Source: Schlesneria paludicola DSM 18645 | Lineage (GTDB): Bacteria > Planctomycetota > Planctomycetia > Planctomycetales > Planctomycetaceae | Direction of reading: 5' to 3' | NCBI GenBank assembly: GCA_945876035.1 | Contig: CAMCMU010000012.1 | Location: forward strand, 1-64,000 | DNA length: 64,000 bases | Shown here: positions 1,893 to 19,105 of the stretch, one piece after another | Numbering within the stretch: position 1 is the first letter of the stretch | Layout of the letters: the number at the start of each line of letters is the position of its first letter | Made by a program: the position numbers and the translations under genes | The notes under the pieces: model-generated | What the model was told of the DNA's origin: nothing | The model's database searches: none | What the model saw: the letters and a program-made list of their open reading frames with translations, nothing else

Positions 1893-3008
1893 TTACGACG
1901 GGCAATGGTCTTTCTTCCACGCTCGCCCCGTCGCATCTGCCGCCATGATTGCATCGGCTACCATGTCCGGCTTCACCTCAAACGGTTCGTTATGCATCGT
2001 GTCGTTTTCCGCTGTGGCACGCACCGCAATCTTTTGCAGCACTTCTGGGGGCAAATCCGTCAGACCAATGTCAGCCAGAGTAATCGGCAGCCCCACCTCG
2101 GTTGCGAATCTCAGCACGCGATTCAGCACCGAACGAGGTTGTCCTTCCAGCACAAGTTGGGTGAGTAATCCGAACGCGACTTTCTCGCCATGCAGGTACG
2201 CATGAGTGGCTTTTGCGGTGGTCAACCCGTTGTGAATCGCATGGGCTGCTGCGAGACCCGAAGATTCGAATCCAATTCCTGATAATAGCGTATTTGCTTC
2301 GACCAATCGTTCCAGGGCCGGGGTCACGACTTTCGATTGCACCGATCGCAGAGCATCGGCTCCATCCGCCAGCAAGGTGCGGTAGCAGAGTTTTGCCAAG
2401 GCCAAAGCAGTCTGCGTTGATACCCCTCCACGCAAGTTCTTTACCCCCCCCTCGACACACGTTTTGGCCTCGAACCACGTCGCCAACGCATCGCCCATCC
2501 CGGCGACTAAGAGCCGCGGCGGACTGTGTGCAATGACCTGCGTATCCACCAGAACCAAGTCCGCGTTCTTGCGATGAAAGCGGCTTCCCTGAGCAACTCC
2601 GTCGTCCGAATAAATCACCGATAAGGCACTGCACGGTGAATCGCTAGACGCAACGGTGGGGCAATTGACGATGGGCAAATTCAGATCCGCAGCAACAGCT
2701 CGAGCGGCATCGAGGACTTTGCCGCCCCCAGCTCCGATGATGACTTGGGATTTGTACTGCTTTGCGACCAACTTGATTCGCTCGATTTCAGATAAGGAAC
2801 ATTCGCCCCCAAACTCAAACACGGCATAGGCGATTCCCGCTTCAGACAGCGTGTGTTTCCAAGTTTCCGAGAGCAAACGAATCGGAGACCGGCCGCCAAC
2901 AATCAGTGCCGGGCCATGTAATCCCAATCCAGACATCTCCACACCCAGAGCATCGGTCGCATTTTTACCCTGCGTATAGCGGCTTGGGGAGCAGAAGACA
3001 GAGAGCAT
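1893..3008 (-). CDS. gldA: Glycerol-dehydrogenase-like iron/zinc alcohol dehydrogenase
   Basis: A 371-residue member of the group III metal-dependent alcohol dehydrogenase fold, closest in layout to NAD-dependent glycerol dehydrogenase (glycerol to dihydroxyacetone). The N-terminal half carries the nucleotide loop GAGGGKVLD (92-100) and the NCPTVASSDSPCS segment usual in GldA. The three zinc ligands are present as D173 (GMGDALATWFEA), H256 (AAAHAIHNG) and H273 (YLHGEK), at almost the same numbering as in the characterised bacterial enzyme. It is expected in the cytosol. The substrate could also be another polyol, since this family includes uncharacterised members; no glycerol kinase or dihydroxyacetone kinase lies nearby. 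Confidence 0.85.
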   Translation of the reverse strand: MLSVFCSPSRYTQGKNATDALGVEMSGLGLHGPALIVGGRSPIRLLSETWKHTLSEAGIAYAVFEFGGECSLSEIERIKLVAKQYKSQVIIGAGGGKVLDAARAVAADLNLPIVNCPTVASSDSPCSALSVIYSDDGVAQGSRFHRKNADLVLVDTQVIAHSPPRLLVAGMGDALATWFEAKTCVEGGVKNLRGGVSTQTALALAKLCYRTLLADGADALRSVQSKVVTPALERLVEANTLLSGIGFESSGLAAAHAIHNGLTTAKATHAYLHGEKVAFGLLTQLVLEGQPRSVLNRVLRFATEVGLPITLADIGLTDLPPEVLQKIAVRATAENDTMHNEPFEVKPDMVADAIMAADATGRAWKKDHCPS

Positions 3009-3675: not shown

Positions 3676-6081
3676 GTGAGTGACGAACCACTGCAGCAAC
3701 AAACGGAGACCGGCAAAACCACGCATGACGGCCTATTTGCCAAAACAAATATCGTTCCACCAGCTGGATCCGGCGATGACCCGTTGCCTGCGGATGCCGC
3801 CGCCGAATCTTCGGGCAGCAGTGCGGCAAAAAATTGGATTGGCAAGACGCTGGGCAAATATCGACTCGACGTTGCGTTGGGCCAAGGGGGCATGGGCGTC
3901 GTCTTCAGAGCCCACGATGCCATGATCGAACGTGATGTCGCGGTCAAGATTCTGGCAAAGCATCTGACTGCGGACGCGACAGCGCTAGCCCGCTTTCTGG
4001 CCGAAGCCCGAGCCACGGGCAAACTCAGCCATCCGAATGTCGTCGCCATCTACGAGATTTGCTGGGAAGAAAACTGGCATTTTCTGGTGATGGAGTATCT
4101 GTCCGGGGGGAGCCTCGCTGACCGTCTGGAAAAGAGCGGTTCGTGCTCCCCGAAGGAAGCGACCCGGATGATGATCGACGTCTGCCAAGGGGTCGCGGCG
4201 GCACATGCCGTAGGACTGATCCACCGCGACATCAAGCCTGCCAATTTCATGCAGGCCGCCGACGGCACCGTGAAGGTGACGGACTTCGGGCTGGCCAAGA
4301 ACGACACCGATTCCAGCCGACATTTGACACAGGCTGGAACGGTCATCGGTACCCCAATCTTCATGAGCCCTGAGCAATGCCAAGGCCAAAAGGTCGACGC
4401 CCGCAGCGACATCTATTCCCTAGGGGCAACTTATTACGCATTGCTGACGGGCAAACACGCTTACGCCGACTCGCCCAGTATCCCTCAAATAATGTTCAAG
4501 CACTGTCACGCTCCAGTGCCTGATCCACGGTCCGTGGATCAGACGATTCCTCCAGCGTGCAGCCGGATCGTGGCTCGATCCATGGCGAAGCTGGCAGACG
4601 AACGCTATCCGTCCGCGGCAGCAATGCTTTCTGATCTGCGTGCGGTCTGGGCCACGCTCTCTGGACAAATTCCCATCCTACTTCCCAGCGAATCGGGCGT
4701 CATGCAGATGCCTGCGCAGAATCAAGGACAGGGACTCGCCGCGGTCGTCGTTGATTCTGCCCACGGGTTGCGGTCGCCCATTGCCGCCATGGCCGGAAAA
4801 GCGGGGCTGTTGACCGTGATCGGCCTGGCGCTCTTTTTTGGGCTGCGATGGCAAACGGCGCCGGTGTTGCTCACGAGTGACGAGCCGATCAGAGTCGGTG
4901 TCCTGCACTCGACGAGCGGCTCGATGGCCAACAGCGAAACGGTGGTCCTCGATGCCACACTGATGGCAATTGAAGAAGTCAACCGATCGGGCGGTCTGTT
5001 AAACCGCAAAATCGTCCCCGTCGTCCGGGATGGCCGATCGGAAGCAACTGTATTCGCCAGGCAAGCCAAAACCCTGATGGATCAAGAGAAGGTCCACGTT
5101 GTGTTTGGCTGTTGGACTTCGGCCAGTCGCAAGAGTGTGATCCCTGTGATCGAGGCCTATGACAATCTTCTGGTTTACCCATTACAGTACGAGGGGCTGG
5201 AGACTTCGCGTAATGTGATTTACATCGGTGCGGCACCCAATCAGCAGATCATTCCGGCAGTCAAATGGGCCGTGGAGACGCTGGGAAAGAAACGTTTTTT
5301 TCTAGTTGGCTCGGATTATGTCTTTCCAAGGGTAGCCCATGAAATCATCAAGGATCAATTGCGCCTACTGCGGGCCGAGACGGTCGGCGAGCAGTTCGTG
5401 CGGCTCGGCAGCCAAGAGGTACAGTCGGTGGTCGAGGCCATTGTCCAAGCGAAACCGGACATAATTTTCAACACCCTTAATGGCGATACGAATATCAACT
5501 TTTTCCGACAATTGCGTGCCGTCGGGGTGACGCCTCAGACGATTCCCTGCCTGTCACTCAGCATCGGAGAGCAAGAATTGCGCAGCTTCGATCTGAGCAC
5601 GATGGTGGGTGACTACGCCGCGTGGCCCTATTTTCAATGCGTCGACACACCAGCCAACCGCAAGTTCGGGGAACACTGTCAGGAGAAGTTTCCATCACGC
5701 AGCATCACGGACCCGATGGAGTGCGCGTATGTGGGAGTCATGCTTTGGGCGCAGGCGGTACGCCAAGCAAATGCGGTGGATCCCACGTCTGTCCGCCGCG
5801 AGATGCTGAACAGCAAGTTCGACGCACCCGAGGGAAACGTGCGGATCGATCCGGATACTCAGCACTGTTACAAAACGCCCCGGATCGGCCAGATTCGATC
5901 GGATGGGCAGTTTCAAATTGTCTGGAGTGCTTCAGAACCCATAAAGCCTGAACCCTACCCCAGCACCCGAACGGCCAGTGAATGGAGTGTTTTTCTCATC
6001 GATCTTTACCGCCGTTGGGACAACCAGTGGTCGGCCCCCAGCACGAACGCCGTTATTCCGCCAGAAGAGACGCGGAACTAA
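3676..6081 (+). CDS. Membrane Ser/Thr protein kinase fused to a UrtA-like amide-binding sensor
   Basis: An 801-residue one-component receptor kinase. Residues 60-330 are a Hanks-type kinase: Gly-rich loop (GQGGMG, 69-74), catalytic lysine K91, HRDIKPAN (183-190), DFG (203-205), and SPE in place of APE (231-233). A short linker leads to one membrane helix at about 377-391. The remaining 410 residues outside the membrane are very close to the urea ABC transporter substrate-binding protein UrtA: VGVLHSTSGSMA (407-418), FGCWTSASRK and GAAPNQQIIPA. In a stand-alone UrtA these bind urea or short amides, so here the domain should sense such a ligand and control the cytosolic kinase; that is inference. 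GTG 3676 is used as start, with GAGG about 11 bases upstream. No urt transporter or urease gene is in the window. Confidence 0.92.
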   Translation: MSDEPLQQQTETGKTTHDGLFAKTNIVPPAGSGDDPLPADAAAESSGSSAAKNWIGKTLGKYRLDVALGQGGMGVVFRAHDAMIERDVAVKILAKHLTADATALARFLAEARATGKLSHPNVVAIYEICWEENWHFLVMEYLSGGSLADRLEKSGSCSPKEATRMMIDVCQGVAAAHAVGLIHRDIKPANFMQAADGTVKVTDFGLAKNDTDSSRHLTQAGTVIGTPIFMSPEQCQGQKVDARSDIYSLGATYYALLTGKHAYADSPSIPQIMFKHCHAPVPDPRSVDQTIPPACSRIVARSMAKLADERYPSAAAMLSDLRAVWATLSGQIPILLPSESGVMQMPAQNQGQGLAAVVVDSAHGLRSPIAAMAGKAGLLTVIGLALFFGLRWQTAPVLLTSDEPIRVGVLHSTSGSMANSETVVLDATLMAIEEVNRSGGLLNRKIVPVVRDGRSEATVFARQAKTLMDQEKVHVVFGCWTSASRKSVIPVIEAYDNLLVYPLQYEGLETSRNVIYIGAAPNQQIIPAVKWAVETLGKKRFFLVGSDYVFPRVAHEIIKDQLRLLRAETVGEQFVRLGSQEVQSVVEAIVQAKPDIIFNTLNGDTNINFFRQLRAVGVTPQTIPCLSLSIGEQELRSFDLSTMVGDYAAWPYFQCVDTPANRKFGEHCQEKFPSRSITDPMECAYVGVMLWAQAVRQANAVDPTSVRREMLNSKFDAPEGNVRIDPDTQHCYKTPRIGQIRSDGQFQIVWSASEPIKPEPYPSTRTASEWSVFLIDLYRRWDNQWSAPSTNAVIPPEETRN

Positions 6082-14914: not shown

Positions 14915-17900
14915 ATGTCGACGACTGAGAATCCGACCAATTCCTCGCATTACGTCAATTTTGACGAGTATGTTGACTTGAAGCTCCAGAAAGCCCAATC
15001 AACAATCAAAACGGCCGACCTGCTTATGGCGTTGGCTGCTGTGGCCGCCATGTTTCTGAGCTACCTGCTGGTGTTTGTGATCTTCGATCAATGGATCATT
15101 CCGGGTGGATTCGGAATCGGGTTCCGTTGGTCGTTGCTACTCACGTTGATCGGGGCCACCGTGTTATGGCTGGCATGGAATGTAGGGCGTCCCTATTTTC
15201 GGTCCATTAATCGCCTGTTTGCCGCGAACGAGATTGAGAAAACGCAGCCGGAATTAAAAAGCAACCTGCTCAATCTCGTCGATTTACGATCCTCCAGCCG
15301 AGAGATCGATCCGGGTGTCAAACGCGCCCTCGAACGACATGCGGCGTTGCAACTCCAGCAAATCGACGTGACTGAGGCGGTTGACCATCGTCCGTTGATG
15401 AGAACGGCGTATGTCTTGCTCGCCGTAATCGCGATGTTCTGTCTGTATGCGATCTTCTCGCCGAAAAAAATTTCCAATTCGATCTGGCGCGGATTATTGC
15501 CGGCAGCCAATGTTGGGCTTTCGACCAACACAGAAATTGTGTCCGTTTTACCGGAAGATACCACCGTCCTAGCTCACTCGCAGCTGGAAATTAGTGCCGT
15601 CTTGAGGGGAGTGATTCCGGATGAACACAATGTGCGCATTTATTACACCTCAACCGATGGCGAGTTTCGAGATGTTCCGGTCACGATGCGCGCCGATGGC
15701 GAACTGCGATTTCAAGGAACGCTGATTGGTGAGAATGGCCAGGGGTTGCTGCAAGACCTGACCTATTTCATCCGCGCCGGTGACGCCACATCAAAAACTT
15801 ACCACGTCACAATTCAGCAACCGCCCTCGGCGAGCCCGGAAAAAGTGACGCTCGAGTTTCCAGCTTATATGAAACTGAACACCACAGAACAGGCGGGAGG
15901 GAACATCGACTCCTGGGAAGGAACAAACGTTACGCTGTCGGCACGCACCAACATGCCGATCAAGTCAGCGGAGATTCGGTTTTTAGATCTTGCCCAAGCC
16001 AAGGAGTTCAACGGTGACGAAATCCCGATGGTCGTCTCCTCCGATGGCCGCAACGTGGAGGCAAAATGGCGACTGTCCTTTGCTTCAGATGGCTCATCGT
16101 ACGCACGGGCGTATCACATCAACTGCAAAACCGCGTCCGGCGTGGAAGATCCCCAGCCGATTCCGTACTCCATCCGGATTCGCCCCGATCTTCCACCGGA
16201 GATCGAACTGTTGGAACCTGTTCGAGACTTAGAAACTGCGGCCAATGCCGTCATTCCGATACTCGTTCAGGCTCGTGACCCTGATTTTGAGTTGAGTCAT
16301 ATCGATCTTCACATCGAAAAAGACGGCCTCTCGATCCTCAAAGATTCACTGTCAGAAAACAAGCAACCCCGTGCCACAATCCCGCATGATTTGGATTTGG
16401 AGCCACTTGGACTGAAAGCGGGCGATGAGATCGAACTGTGGGTCGAAGCACTCGACAATAAACGACCCCGCGCCAATCGCAAGAACACTCCCCGATTGAA
16501 GGTCACGATCCTCAAACCGCTCAGCGAGACCGAGGTTCAAAAACAGTTGGCCGATGATCACAAGCAACGAGATAAACTGATGGCGGACACGCAACAGGAG
16601 CAAAATGACGCCGCACGCGGCGAGAATGATCCGCAGCTCGCGAATGCGAGAAACTCGCCGCAATCGCCTCAGGAAACCCAACAATCGGAACGGCGGCCGA
16701 TTGATCAAGACCAAAATTCCAAAGCGGAGACTGCGAATGATCCGGGACAATCGAAAACGCCGGGTACGTCTGGCGATCAGGCCGATCAACAGTCACGCTC
16801 CAGTGACAGTGGTAAAAACAACAAGACCGATTCCCGCGATGAGACGGACACCAAGTCTTCCCAAAAAGAGTCTTCCCAGGATCACTCCACCGGTTCCGAA
16901 AAAACGGCCAGAAAACAAAAGCCGATTAGCCCTGATGGTCCAGACGACGAGAAGGTGCTGGAAAAGTTGATTGAGAAGCTGGGCCAACCACCAAAATCAG
17001 ACGCCCCCCCTCAAGACAAAAAAAACAACGAAGTCGGCCGAGGTTCCGAAAACGATTCACAACCACCTAACTCCGTTGAGAAACAGACCGGCGAGGCGAA
17101 CGGCGAGGACGACGAAAACAAAAACGGCCCCCCCACGCCGTCCAAAGAGTCTCAGGGGAATAGCCCCCCGAGCGTCGATGGTCAGGATCAGGCAGCCCCC
17201 CCGTCGCCTCCCAATTCGCGGAATAAAACACGCCCCAAGGACGGGGAATCTGCGCGCCCTGAGAGTCCGCAAGAAAACGCTCGGCCGAGTACGGAAGCAA
17301 AATCATCGAAGCCTCCGACAAACGTGGACGAGGCCAACAAGAACCGAGCTGACGACGCCAATTCGAGCGAGTCACAGAAACCGAAAAGAAACACCGATTC
17401 CGAACGCAACGAACCCGATCAGATCGAAACGTCCAAGTCGAACTCCGGTCCCGCCAACAATCCAAAGTCGACGGATGGCGATCCCTCAAACGGCGACGAT
17501 GGGGGGCAACATTCTCTCGATAAGACTCCGGAATCTGAAGCAGGCCGCAGTACCAAGCAGAACGTGGCCACGCCCGAAAAAAAATCCGCCGTCAAACAGC
17601 CAGGTCCTGGAAATCGCTCTGAGTCGCCTCCCGCGGGTGAAAGCACTCCGGACTCCACGCAGACCGGTGAACCCGCTCCCGGCAATCCGGGCGAACAGGT
17701 CGAAGACTCCATCGATTCCATAAAAAAAACTGCTGCCGGTACAGAAAAAGGGGTCGCCAAGCCTCAGAATGATCCCACGGCGAATCCCACGCCGAGCAAG
17801 GAGCAGGAGCTGACTCGCGATCCTCAAGAAAAGCCAGCGAATCGCCGCACTGAGACCACAGACATTGACTCCAATTCGCCCACAAAAAGTCCCGCGAAGA

Positions 17901-19105
17901 CGCCCAAGACAACACCCAAAAAACGCCCCTCATCCAAAACCGAGCAAGAGCCAACCGCCAGCGATGGCGATTCACGGGAGGCGGTTGAGCAAACGCAGAA
18001 ACCCGACGGCATCGATCAATCCCTTCCAAACCCCGCGCGAGGAACCGAAGCGAAGAAATCGAGAATAGACAAAAAAGACAATTCCAACAGCGACCAACCG
18101 GGACGTAGCGACGCTGTGGAGCGTCTCGAAACACAACAGAAACCTAAATCAATACCGGATCAGACGGGTCAAAAACAGGGCTCCGAAGCCACGTCTGACA
18201 CAGGCGATAACCCTGCGGAGAGTCGCTCAAAAAACGGCGATACGCGTGCTGATCCGAAAGACGTTTCCCAGAAGTCCACCGAGAGTAATCCCTCGGCGAC
18301 GAATCCGCCGGATTCCGCCAACGATCAGGCAGGCAAGTCGCCACGCAAAAAAACTTCGGGTCCATCAAAATCCGCCACCGGTCAAGGAGCGGATCAACAA
18401 TTGAATCGACCCACACAACAGAGTCCGGAACAACCTCAGACGGATTCCAAGCAATCAGGAAAACGTGATCCAAGTGATCCGCAAAAAGGAAAGCCGGAGA
18501 TGGGGAAAGGGCCAGCAGGGGAGGCGGGGAATGCGTCAGCAAGCGATTCGTTGACGAATCGCGGTTCTCCTTCAGGACTGCCGACGGGTGAACAACCCTC
18601 AGGCTCACAAAATGGTGCGGGCGGTCAGTCGGATGCGACGGGGAGCATTGCCAACGGCGATGGGAGTGGATCGGATTCTCCAATGGAAGACGGTGATGCG
18701 GCCAATTTGGAGTACAACAAACAAGCCACGGAATTGGTTCTGAAAAGACTTCAGGATGACTTTGAAAGAGGCGATGTTGATCCGGAGTTACTGGAACAAT
18801 TGGGTTGGACCGAAGCAGAGATGAAGCGATTCACGGACCGGATCGGCAAGCATCTTCAGGACTTGAAATCCGTTGACGACTCCCCGCTCTCGACAGCGCG
18901 TCGTCAACAGTTTGAAGAAATGTTGAAGCTCATCAACCTGAAAAACAATGGCGTCCGCCGGACTGGCGAGAAGGCTCCAGCACGTGATGTGATCCAAATC
19001 GAATCTCACCGAGCAACGGTTCCACCGCACTATCGAAAAGCCTCCGAGCAATTCAGCAAGGATCTCTTGCGTCTGAAAAAAAACGAAACGCCATCCCGCC
19101 GTTAA
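14915..19105 (+). CDS. DUF4175-like membrane protein with ~710-residue low-complexity region
   Basis: 1396 residues of unknown function. Three membrane helices lie at the N-terminus (about 34-60, 70-90 and 163-181), then beta-sandwich-like modules to about residue 540, as in DUF4175 proteins. Residues about 545-1257 are almost only Gln, Asn, Ser, Glu, Asp, Lys, Pro, Thr and Gly without sequence order. A conserved-looking helical tail closes the protein (about 1258-1396: YNKQATELVLKRLQDDF, then LLEQLGWTEAEMKRFTDRI). In the genome the frame stays open over 4.2 kb in spite of the composition, so the region is selected to be translated. Such genes have been mislabelled circumsporozoite-like because of composition alone. 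Together with the VWA gene upstream it probably forms an envelope complex; that is inference. Confidence 0.82.
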   Translation: MSTTENPTNSSHYVNFDEYVDLKLQKAQSTIKTADLLMALAAVAAMFLSYLLVFVIFDQWIIPGGFGIGFRWSLLLTLIGATVLWLAWNVGRPYFRSINRLFAANEIEKTQPELKSNLLNLVDLRSSSREIDPGVKRALERHAALQLQQIDVTEAVDHRPLMRTAYVLLAVIAMFCLYAIFSPKKISNSIWRGLLPAANVGLSTNTEIVSVLPEDTTVLAHSQLEISAVLRGVIPDEHNVRIYYTSTDGEFRDVPVTMRADGELRFQGTLIGENGQGLLQDLTYFIRAGDATSKTYHVTIQQPPSASPEKVTLEFPAYMKLNTTEQAGGNIDSWEGTNVTLSARTNMPIKSAEIRFLDLAQAKEFNGDEIPMVVSSDGRNVEAKWRLSFASDGSSYARAYHINCKTASGVEDPQPIPYSIRIRPDLPPEIELLEPVRDLETAANAVIPILVQARDPDFELSHIDLHIEKDGLSILKDSLSENKQPRATIPHDLDLEPLGLKAGDEIELWVEALDNKRPRANRKNTPRLKVTILKPLSETEVQKQLADDHKQRDKLMADTQQEQNDAARGENDPQLANARNSPQSPQETQQSERRPIDQDQNSKAETANDPGQSKTPGTSGDQADQQSRSSDSGKNNKTDSRDETDTKSSQKESSQDHSTGSEKTARKQKPISPDGPDDEKVLEKLIEKLGQPPKSDAPPQDKKNNEVGRGSENDSQPPNSVEKQTGEANGEDDENKNGPPTPSKESQGNSPPSVDGQDQAAPPSPPNSRNKTRPKDGESARPESPQENARPSTEAKSSKPPTNVDEANKNRADDANSSESQKPKRNTDSERNEPDQIETSKSNSGPANNPKSTDGDPSNGDDGGQHSLDKTPESEAGRSTKQNVATPEKKSAVKQPGPGNRSESPPAGESTPDSTQTGEPAPGNPGEQVEDSIDSIKKTAAGTEKGVAKPQNDPTANPTPSKEQELTRDPQEKPANRRTETTDIDSNSPTKSPAKTPKTTPKKRPSSKTEQEPTASDGDSREAVEQTQKPDGIDQSLPNPARGTEAKKSRIDKKDNSNSDQPGRSDAVERLETQQKPKSIPDQTGQKQGSEATSDTGDNPAESRSKNGDTRADPKDVSQKSTESNPSATNPPDSANDQAGKSPRKKTSGPSKSATGQGADQQLNRPTQQSPEQPQTDSKQSGKRDPSDPQKGKPEMGKGPAGEAGNASASDSLTNRGSPSGLPTGEQPSGSQNGAGGQSDATGSIANGDGSGSDSPMEDGDAANLEYNKQATELVLKRLQDDFERGDVDPELLEQLGWTEAEMKRFTDRIGKHLQDLKSVDDSPLSTARRQQFEEMLKLINLKNNGVRRTGEKAPARDVIQIESHRATVPPHYRKASEQFSKDLLRLKKNETPSRR

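Follow-up and report, generated by a model that had tools for sequence, protein, structure and literature searches.

A planctomycete Hanks-type kinase joined to a UrtA-like domain is a candidate receptor for urea

Introduction

To our knowledge, only a small number of bacterial Ser/Thr receptor kinases have an identified ligand. The window analysed here, a stretch of 64,000 nucleotides of planctomycete DNA, contains a gene in which a kinase of this type and a UrtA-like domain are joined in one protein, and it raises the question of what such a protein could sense and on which side of the membrane. The original prediction for this gene was a direct sensor that would report urea or short amides, as nitrogen sources, to a Ser/Thr kinase. 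No paper on a bacterial Ser/Thr kinase fused to UrtA or Peripla_BP was found in the open-licence PMC literature; a study of Planctomycetota kinases (PMC11032199) does not name such a domain in the available part of its main text, and its supplementary tables may list it.

Domain organisation and predicted structure

The features of the gene are collected in Table 1. The motifs GQGGMG, VAVK, HRDIKPAN, DFGL and SPEQ are present in the kinase domain, so that all the Hanks-type hallmarks (glycine loop, VAxK lysine, HRDxKxxN and DFG) are accounted for, and K91, E110, H183-R184-D185, N190 and D203-F204-G205 are the same in all of the 11 fused proteins that were aligned. From its sequence the domain can be assigned as a Hanks-type Ser/Thr kinase with intact catalytic motifs. 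With NF033483, the model for the PASTA kinase PknB/Stk1, it scores 301.9 bits, below the cut-off of 450, and a Pfam scan found no PASTA domain in the protein. Hydropathy analysis finds one strongly hydrophobic stretch in the 801 residues. The protein scores 460 bits with the NCBIfam UrtA model TIGR03407, less than the curated cut-off of 492.75, and the nearest solved structures by sequence are 8tg1 (E 2.7e-125), the UrtA entries 7s6f, 8hic and 7s6e (about 1e-96) and AmiC, 1pea (4e-60). No second UrtA-like place was found in the genome at E<=0.001. The predicted arrangement of a complete Hanks-type kinase, one membrane helix and a UrtA domain is thus borne out by Pkinase, hydropathy and Peripla_BP_5, and all three UrtA motifs quoted in support of it, including FGCWTSASRK and GAAPNQQIIPA, occur in the translation.

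Table 1. Features of the kinase-UrtA gene, in positions of the window
Feature	Positions	Strand	Basis
Whole gene	3676..6081	+	801 aa, GTG start; ORF call and translation
Hanks-type Ser/Thr kinase domain, residues 63-310	3862..4605	+	Pfam Pkinase E 2.9e-49; catalytic motifs
HRD catalytic motif, residues 183-185	4222..4230	+	Invariant in 11 aligned fused proteins
DFG motif, residues 203-205	4282..4290	+	Invariant in 11 aligned fused proteins
Single membrane helix, residues 369-387	4780..4836	+	Hydropathy 1.91 over 19 residues; poorly modelled
UrtA-like binding domain, residues 405-765	4888..5970	+	Peripla_BP_5 E 4e-148; pLDDT 92.5; Z 57.5 to 8tg1
Span of nine pocket residues, W480 S482 Y501 Q504 E506 Y548 F550 N602 S629	5113..5562	+	Alignment to 8HIC
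C-terminal W-x10-W-x3-W tail, residues 770-785	5983..6030	+	Motif; helix 767-780 in model

An AlphaFold2 model of the sensor (residues 401-801, 26 sequences) has a mean pLDDT of 92.5 and a pTM of 0.91. Its best structural match (Z 57.5, 50% identity) is 8tg1, which binds urea in the periplasm of Caldicellulosiruptor, followed by 8hic (55.7), 7s6e (55.3), 7s6f (55.0) and AmiC (53.0, rmsd 1.6 over 360 residues), with which the fold is shared. Foldseek returned the same structure groups in the same order. The full-length model (mean pLDDT 75.6, pTM 0.51) contains two predicted domains, and most of residues 341-400, the linker and membrane helix, lie below a pLDDT of 50, the arrangement of the domains not being readable from this model.

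The ligand pocket

Nine residues lie near urea in Prochlorococcus UrtA (W120, S122, Y141, Q144, E146, Y190, F192, N246 and S274), and the available part of that study (PMC10392092) reports that mutants of S122, Q144, Y190 or N246 have strongly lowered or abolished urea binding, that W120A does not bind, and that F192 is of little importance. When aligned to 8HIC, to which its whole domain is 46% identical over 356 columns, the window protein is identical at 9/9 of these positions. At the same places AmiC (1pea) reads Y, S, Y, P, E, Y, Y, V and T and so differs at five, and an AmiC-like ligand was rejected on the strength of these residues. The comparison of pockets with UrtA and AmiC had been proposed with the original prediction, for which a loss of the urea-contact residues would have been damaging. 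Those residues are all present; the grouping of urea and amides as one class of ligand is not supported, as the pocket is UrtA-like and not AmiC-like.

The complete set of nine residues recurs in 25 of 29 fused proteins and is retained among proteins that are only 50-60% identical, from which it is predicted that most of the fused receptors bind urea. Three others share a changed pocket, CSYNEYFTG (L017, L068 and L072), and L053 has V at the position of N602; these few probably bind something other than urea. For the window receptor, its pocket residues make urea the most likely ligand.

Membrane topology

The flanks of the helix in the window protein each carry one K/R and one D/E, and the charge bias is uninformative for this copy alone. 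Taken together, the 29 fused proteins have 89 K/R against 11 D/E in the 15 residues that precede the helix, and 50 K/R against 57 D/E in the 15 that follow. It is established that positive charges favour the inside, and by this rule the summed bias places the kinase inside and the sensor outside. A hydrophobic helix precedes the sensor in 29/29 of these proteins, with a hydropathy of 1.46 in L121 and of 1.86-3.06 in the others. The domains and membrane helix of a Venus-flytrap receptor kinase are all found in the window protein, its topology being read from the 29-protein charge bias only. On that basis the UrtA-like domain is probably extracytoplasmic and the kinase cytoplasmic; a cytosolic C-terminal domain, which would have spoken against the original prediction, is not what the bias indicates. 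In L051, L052, L062 and L121 an SRR motif stands immediately ahead of the membrane helix and resembles a twin-arginine signal.

Recurrence and history of the fusion

A match to the sensor domain was found in 43 of 392 sampled genomes of the phylum (E<=1e-30) and, in the family to which the window belongs, in 39 of 170 (E<=1e-40). A single reading frame joining kinase and UrtA occurs in 20 of these 170, a count that leaves out G440, which has a fragment only, so the search for further fusions that had been suggested earlier gave a positive answer. Among 51 loci from named-species genomes, some of which are also among the genomes counted above, 11 are intact fusions. The carriers of intact fusions include Roseiconus, Blastopirellula, Mariniblastus, unclassified bins and one Gemmatales bin. 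Since Roseiconus belongs to the Pirellulaceae, this is probably also the family of the window. An assembly chimera can be ruled out, given the fusion in 20/170 family genomes and in named organisms. Within the genus of the window only 2/15 genomes (G000 and G512) have the fusion, and its distribution is thus patchy. Rhodopirellula maiorica has a kinase-UrtA copy (L101) with its sensor split over two reading frames, by a frame change or a sequencing error. When the window was compared with 13 wide and 7 short fusion loci, neighbouring genes were common almost only to two close relatives; for want of a conserved neighbourhood the target of the kinase cannot be read from context.

In a tree calculated without the tail columns, the sensors of the 29 fused proteins fall on one side of a branch, with a support of 76 that is not strong. 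In a tree of the 29 fused kinases with 19 paralogues from the genome of the window, a single group (100/98) takes in 26 of the 29; L062, L094 and L121 are each placed with kinases outside it. Forcing all 29 kinases together costs 79.8 log units (p-AU 6.4e-10). Since the sensors group together and the kinases belong to at least four groups, kinases were acquired or exchanged more than once, and such repeated pairing of kinase and sensor argues that the combination is functional.

A signalling lineage of UrtA-like proteins

The closest stand-alone relatives of the sensor mostly have an N-terminal hydrophobic segment and adjoin signalling genes. At 13 loci of our choosing the partner genes were scanned with Pfam, and all 13 encode signalling proteins: five of histidine-kinase type (L086, with HAMP and HATPase only, L039, L088, L090 and L093), two SpoIIE-type (PP2C) phosphatases (L095 and L096) and six chemoreceptors (L040, L098, L100, L102, L108 and L112). 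A dCache_1 match (E<=1e-6) is present in 11 of the 13, several of these being below Pfam's own cut-off. Other histidine-kinase and chemoreceptor labels in the sensor tree that includes part of the tail (below) were given by reading, from motifs, or from the clade or the size of the neighbour (L008, L087, L091, L012; L103-L107). Possible partners in the vicinity of L006/L007 are a MASE1 histidine kinase and a REC-guanylate cyclase.

The signalling rows have a C-terminal W-x10-W-x3-W tail in common, by which the lineage can be recognised. Among the 104 domain rows longer than 300 residues, this tail is found in 59 (57 strict, two with one residue fewer) and an UrtB-like gene nearby in 24, of which L013 is weak (E 6e-9). 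The two never occur together (0/104). Neither is present in 21 rows, which include short loci, soluble histidine-kinase fusions, stand-alone Pirellulaceae proteins and two frame-broken rows. A quick tree, the rows of which include part of the tail, separates the signalling lineage from the transport UrtAs with a support of 97 (left out: L081, L101, L112, L128, L047, L029, L028, L025, L020, L026 and L022). In a second quick tree of 97 rows with the tail columns removed, the same separation has a support of 89 and the tail needs one change (left out: L101, L112, L128, L029, L028, L025, L020, L026, L022 and 1pea). By its sequence, then, the sensor of the window can be placed in the signalling lineage of UrtA and not with the transport UrtAs. 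The idea of a direct sensor is strengthened by this placement, ligand binding itself being predicted. A helix is predicted in the tail region of the sensor model (767-780), and our guess would be that the tail couples ligand binding to output.

Several members of the wider family deserve mention in their own right. In L097 (1494-3416) a UrtA domain, its urea pocket intact, is joined to a TrmB-type DNA-binding domain, and the protein is possibly a urea-responsive transcription regulator. L043 (7686-10526), L044, L045 and L077, from the family of the window, are soluble UrtA-HisKA-HATPase-REC-REC fusions lacking an N-terminal hydrophobic segment; from this layout they are probable cytoplasmic urea or amide sensors, and L043-L045 are more distant from the window's sensor than are the stand-alone signalling proteins. 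Chemoreceptor-linked and related UrtA-like proteins (L100, L102-L110) mostly have the pocket WSYAEYWVS, some ending in WVA or WPA, which hints at another ligand. In the genus of the window, L070, L071, L073 and L075 are stand-alone UrtA-like proteins in which the tail is absent and the pockets are altered.

Urea metabolism in genomes with the fusion

The 170 genomes were searched for urease alpha, UrtB, urea carboxylase and acetamidase/formamidase, and 31 genomes for UreG. The genome of the window, which is 96.85% complete, gave no match to urease alpha or UreG at E<=0.001, none to FmdA_AmdA (acetamidase/formamidase) at E<=1e-10 and none over the cut-off to urea carboxylase; four UrtB-like places were found, all under the cut-off (best 126 bits against 250.3). 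Nearly every genome matches the urea-carboxylase model over the first ~440 of its 1201 positions only, none over the cut-off. These partial matches are probably biotin carboxylases, and as they are partial only the cut-off count was used.

A strong urease, defined by E<1e-40, is present in 12 of the 28 genomes with any match, that is in 12/170, and the fusion in 20; the one genome in common is G471, which is 66% complete and has no UreG. UrtB exceeds the cut-off in 7/170 genomes, none with the fusion, and UreG in 0/20 fusion genomes as against 10/11 of the other urease genomes. Neither urease nor UrtB is associated with the fusion over the 170 genomes (Fisher p = 1 each), and since the overlap, although close to nil, is not significantly low we do not claim mutual exclusion. 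The proposal of a nitrogen-source sensor is not supported here, known enzymes of urea or short-amide degradation not having been found in the genome among the families tried and the fusion being unassociated with urease in the family. A simple nitrogen-source switch is unsupported, which leaves urea as a cue, another route of use, or another ligand.

Discussion

We think it fairly probable that the window encodes a one-protein Venus-flytrap receptor kinase, the ligand of which is most likely urea, or else a small molecule much like it. The ligand would enter the cleft of the extracytoplasmic UrtA-like domain, its two lobes would close, and closure would be transmitted through the short linker and the single membrane helix to alter the pairing of receptors and, with it, the trans-autophosphorylation of the cytoplasmic Ser/Thr kinase, in one direction or the other. 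Changed pairing that leads to trans-autophosphorylation is general knowledge for Hanks-type receptor kinases, and we infer that it applies to the window protein.

It is possible, if rather unlikely, that the same receptor kinase responds not to urea but to another small amide or urea-like molecule such as formamide, acetamide or hydroxyurea. A urea-using enzyme was not found in the genome among the families tried, pockets have drifted in related signalling UrtAs (CSYNEYFTG, WSYAEYWVS), and UrtA-type transporters occur beside amidase genes and may serve other amides too, as the available part of one source has it (PMC3098086). However, the urea-site residues are kept in full here and in most of the fused proteins, and the same genome also lacks an FmdA_AmdA match at the threshold used. 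The missing metabolic context could also suit a UrtA-like domain that has lost its response to ligand and become a fixed scaffold for dimerisation or docking, and recurrent exchange of kinases would suit a generic outside module; we nevertheless regard this as improbable, as a scaffold does not need all nine contact residues, which are kept over proteins of such low identity.

Two further explanations concern the place of the domain and its partner. That the domain feeds an ABC importer, with the kinase a mere anchor or a regulator of the importer, would agree with its origin in a superfamily of transport proteins and with the distant UrtB-like permeases elsewhere in the genome, yet none of these permeases passes the UrtB cut-off, the sensor groups with signalling UrtAs, and tail and UrtB-like neighbour are never found together in our 104 rows, so that we consider it very improbable. 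We give almost no credence to a cytoplasmic C-terminal domain, on the pattern of AmiC and the soluble UrtA-histidine-kinase fusions: AmiC and L043-L045 do show that a protein of this fold need not be exported to function, and the flank charges are balanced in the window copy, but against this stand the helix before every fused sensor, the strong summed charge bias and the N-terminal hydrophobic segments of stand-alone relatives.

As a urea receptor kinase the protein would combine elements of several known systems. UrtA of UrtABCDE (8HIC, 7S6E, 7S6F; also 8TG1) shares with the window sensor the family, the fold (Z 55-57.5) and the nine pocket residues; the window sensor is unlike it in being fused to a kinase, in a genome without UrtB over the cut-off, on another branch of the tree, with the W-x10-W-x3-W tail and a score below the TIGR03407 cut-off. 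Set against four marks of UrtA it departs in three, namely score, partner permease and, in the quick trees, clade, and agrees in the urea pocket. AmiC, the amide sensor of the Pseudomonas amidase operon, shares the fold and is likewise a member of the superfamily used for sensing, whereas five of its pocket positions are different and it has no kinase. The cytoplasmic target of AmiC is the antiterminator AmiR, and 1qo0 is the complex of the two. The PknB/PrkC-type PASTA receptor kinases resemble the window protein in having a Hanks kinase, one membrane helix and a C-terminal sensor, which is outside in these kinases and probably so in the window protein, and differ in that their sensor is PASTA and not UrtA-like. 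From its sequence, the window protein can be described as a Hanks kinase to which a domain of the UrtA/AmiC superfamily is attached.

Invertebrate Venus kinase receptors have the opposite domain order to the window protein, and an independent origin of the two is likely. As is predicted for the window protein, they are described, in the accounts partly available, with an outer Venus-flytrap domain that a single membrane helix connects to a protein kinase inside the cell, the kinase being a tyrosine kinase close to that of the insulin receptor and activated by amino acids. A solute-binding protein also controls a Ser/Thr kinase in the GlnH-GlnX-PknG system of Actinobacteria, in which, according to the available part of the report, three separate proteins are involved and GlnH binds aspartate and glutamate (PMC9769921).

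A wider reading can be offered tentatively, and we would not be surprised to see it fail. The tail-marked sensing lineage of UrtA might be a portable module for the detection of urea, attached in several phyla to signalling outputs of most kinds, namely Hanks and histidine kinases, PP2C phosphatases, chemoreceptors and a TrmB regulator, with the tail as its coupling element; in Pirellulaceae it would drive Ser/Thr kinases and report urea as an environmental cue to cells that are unable to consume it. The pocket makes a sharp and cheap prediction, urea, for which the published UrtA mutants could serve as a guide. If it is true, planctomycetes, with their many kinases of unknown input, would acquire a receptor kinase whose signal is defined, and a homologue of UrtA ought not to be annotated automatically as a transport protein, an entire lineage being sensor-like and recognisable by a simple sequence mark.

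Elsewhere in the window

At 14915-19105 (+) lies a 1396-aa reading frame that has hydrophobic segments at its N-terminal end and, in its middle, a long hydrophilic region of low complexity, without a Pfam match at E<=1e-5; it covers a strong AT skew at 16001-18000. The gene at 1893-3008 (-) belongs to the iron-containing alcohol dehydrogenase family and scores above the NCBIfam cut-off for glycerol dehydrogenase.
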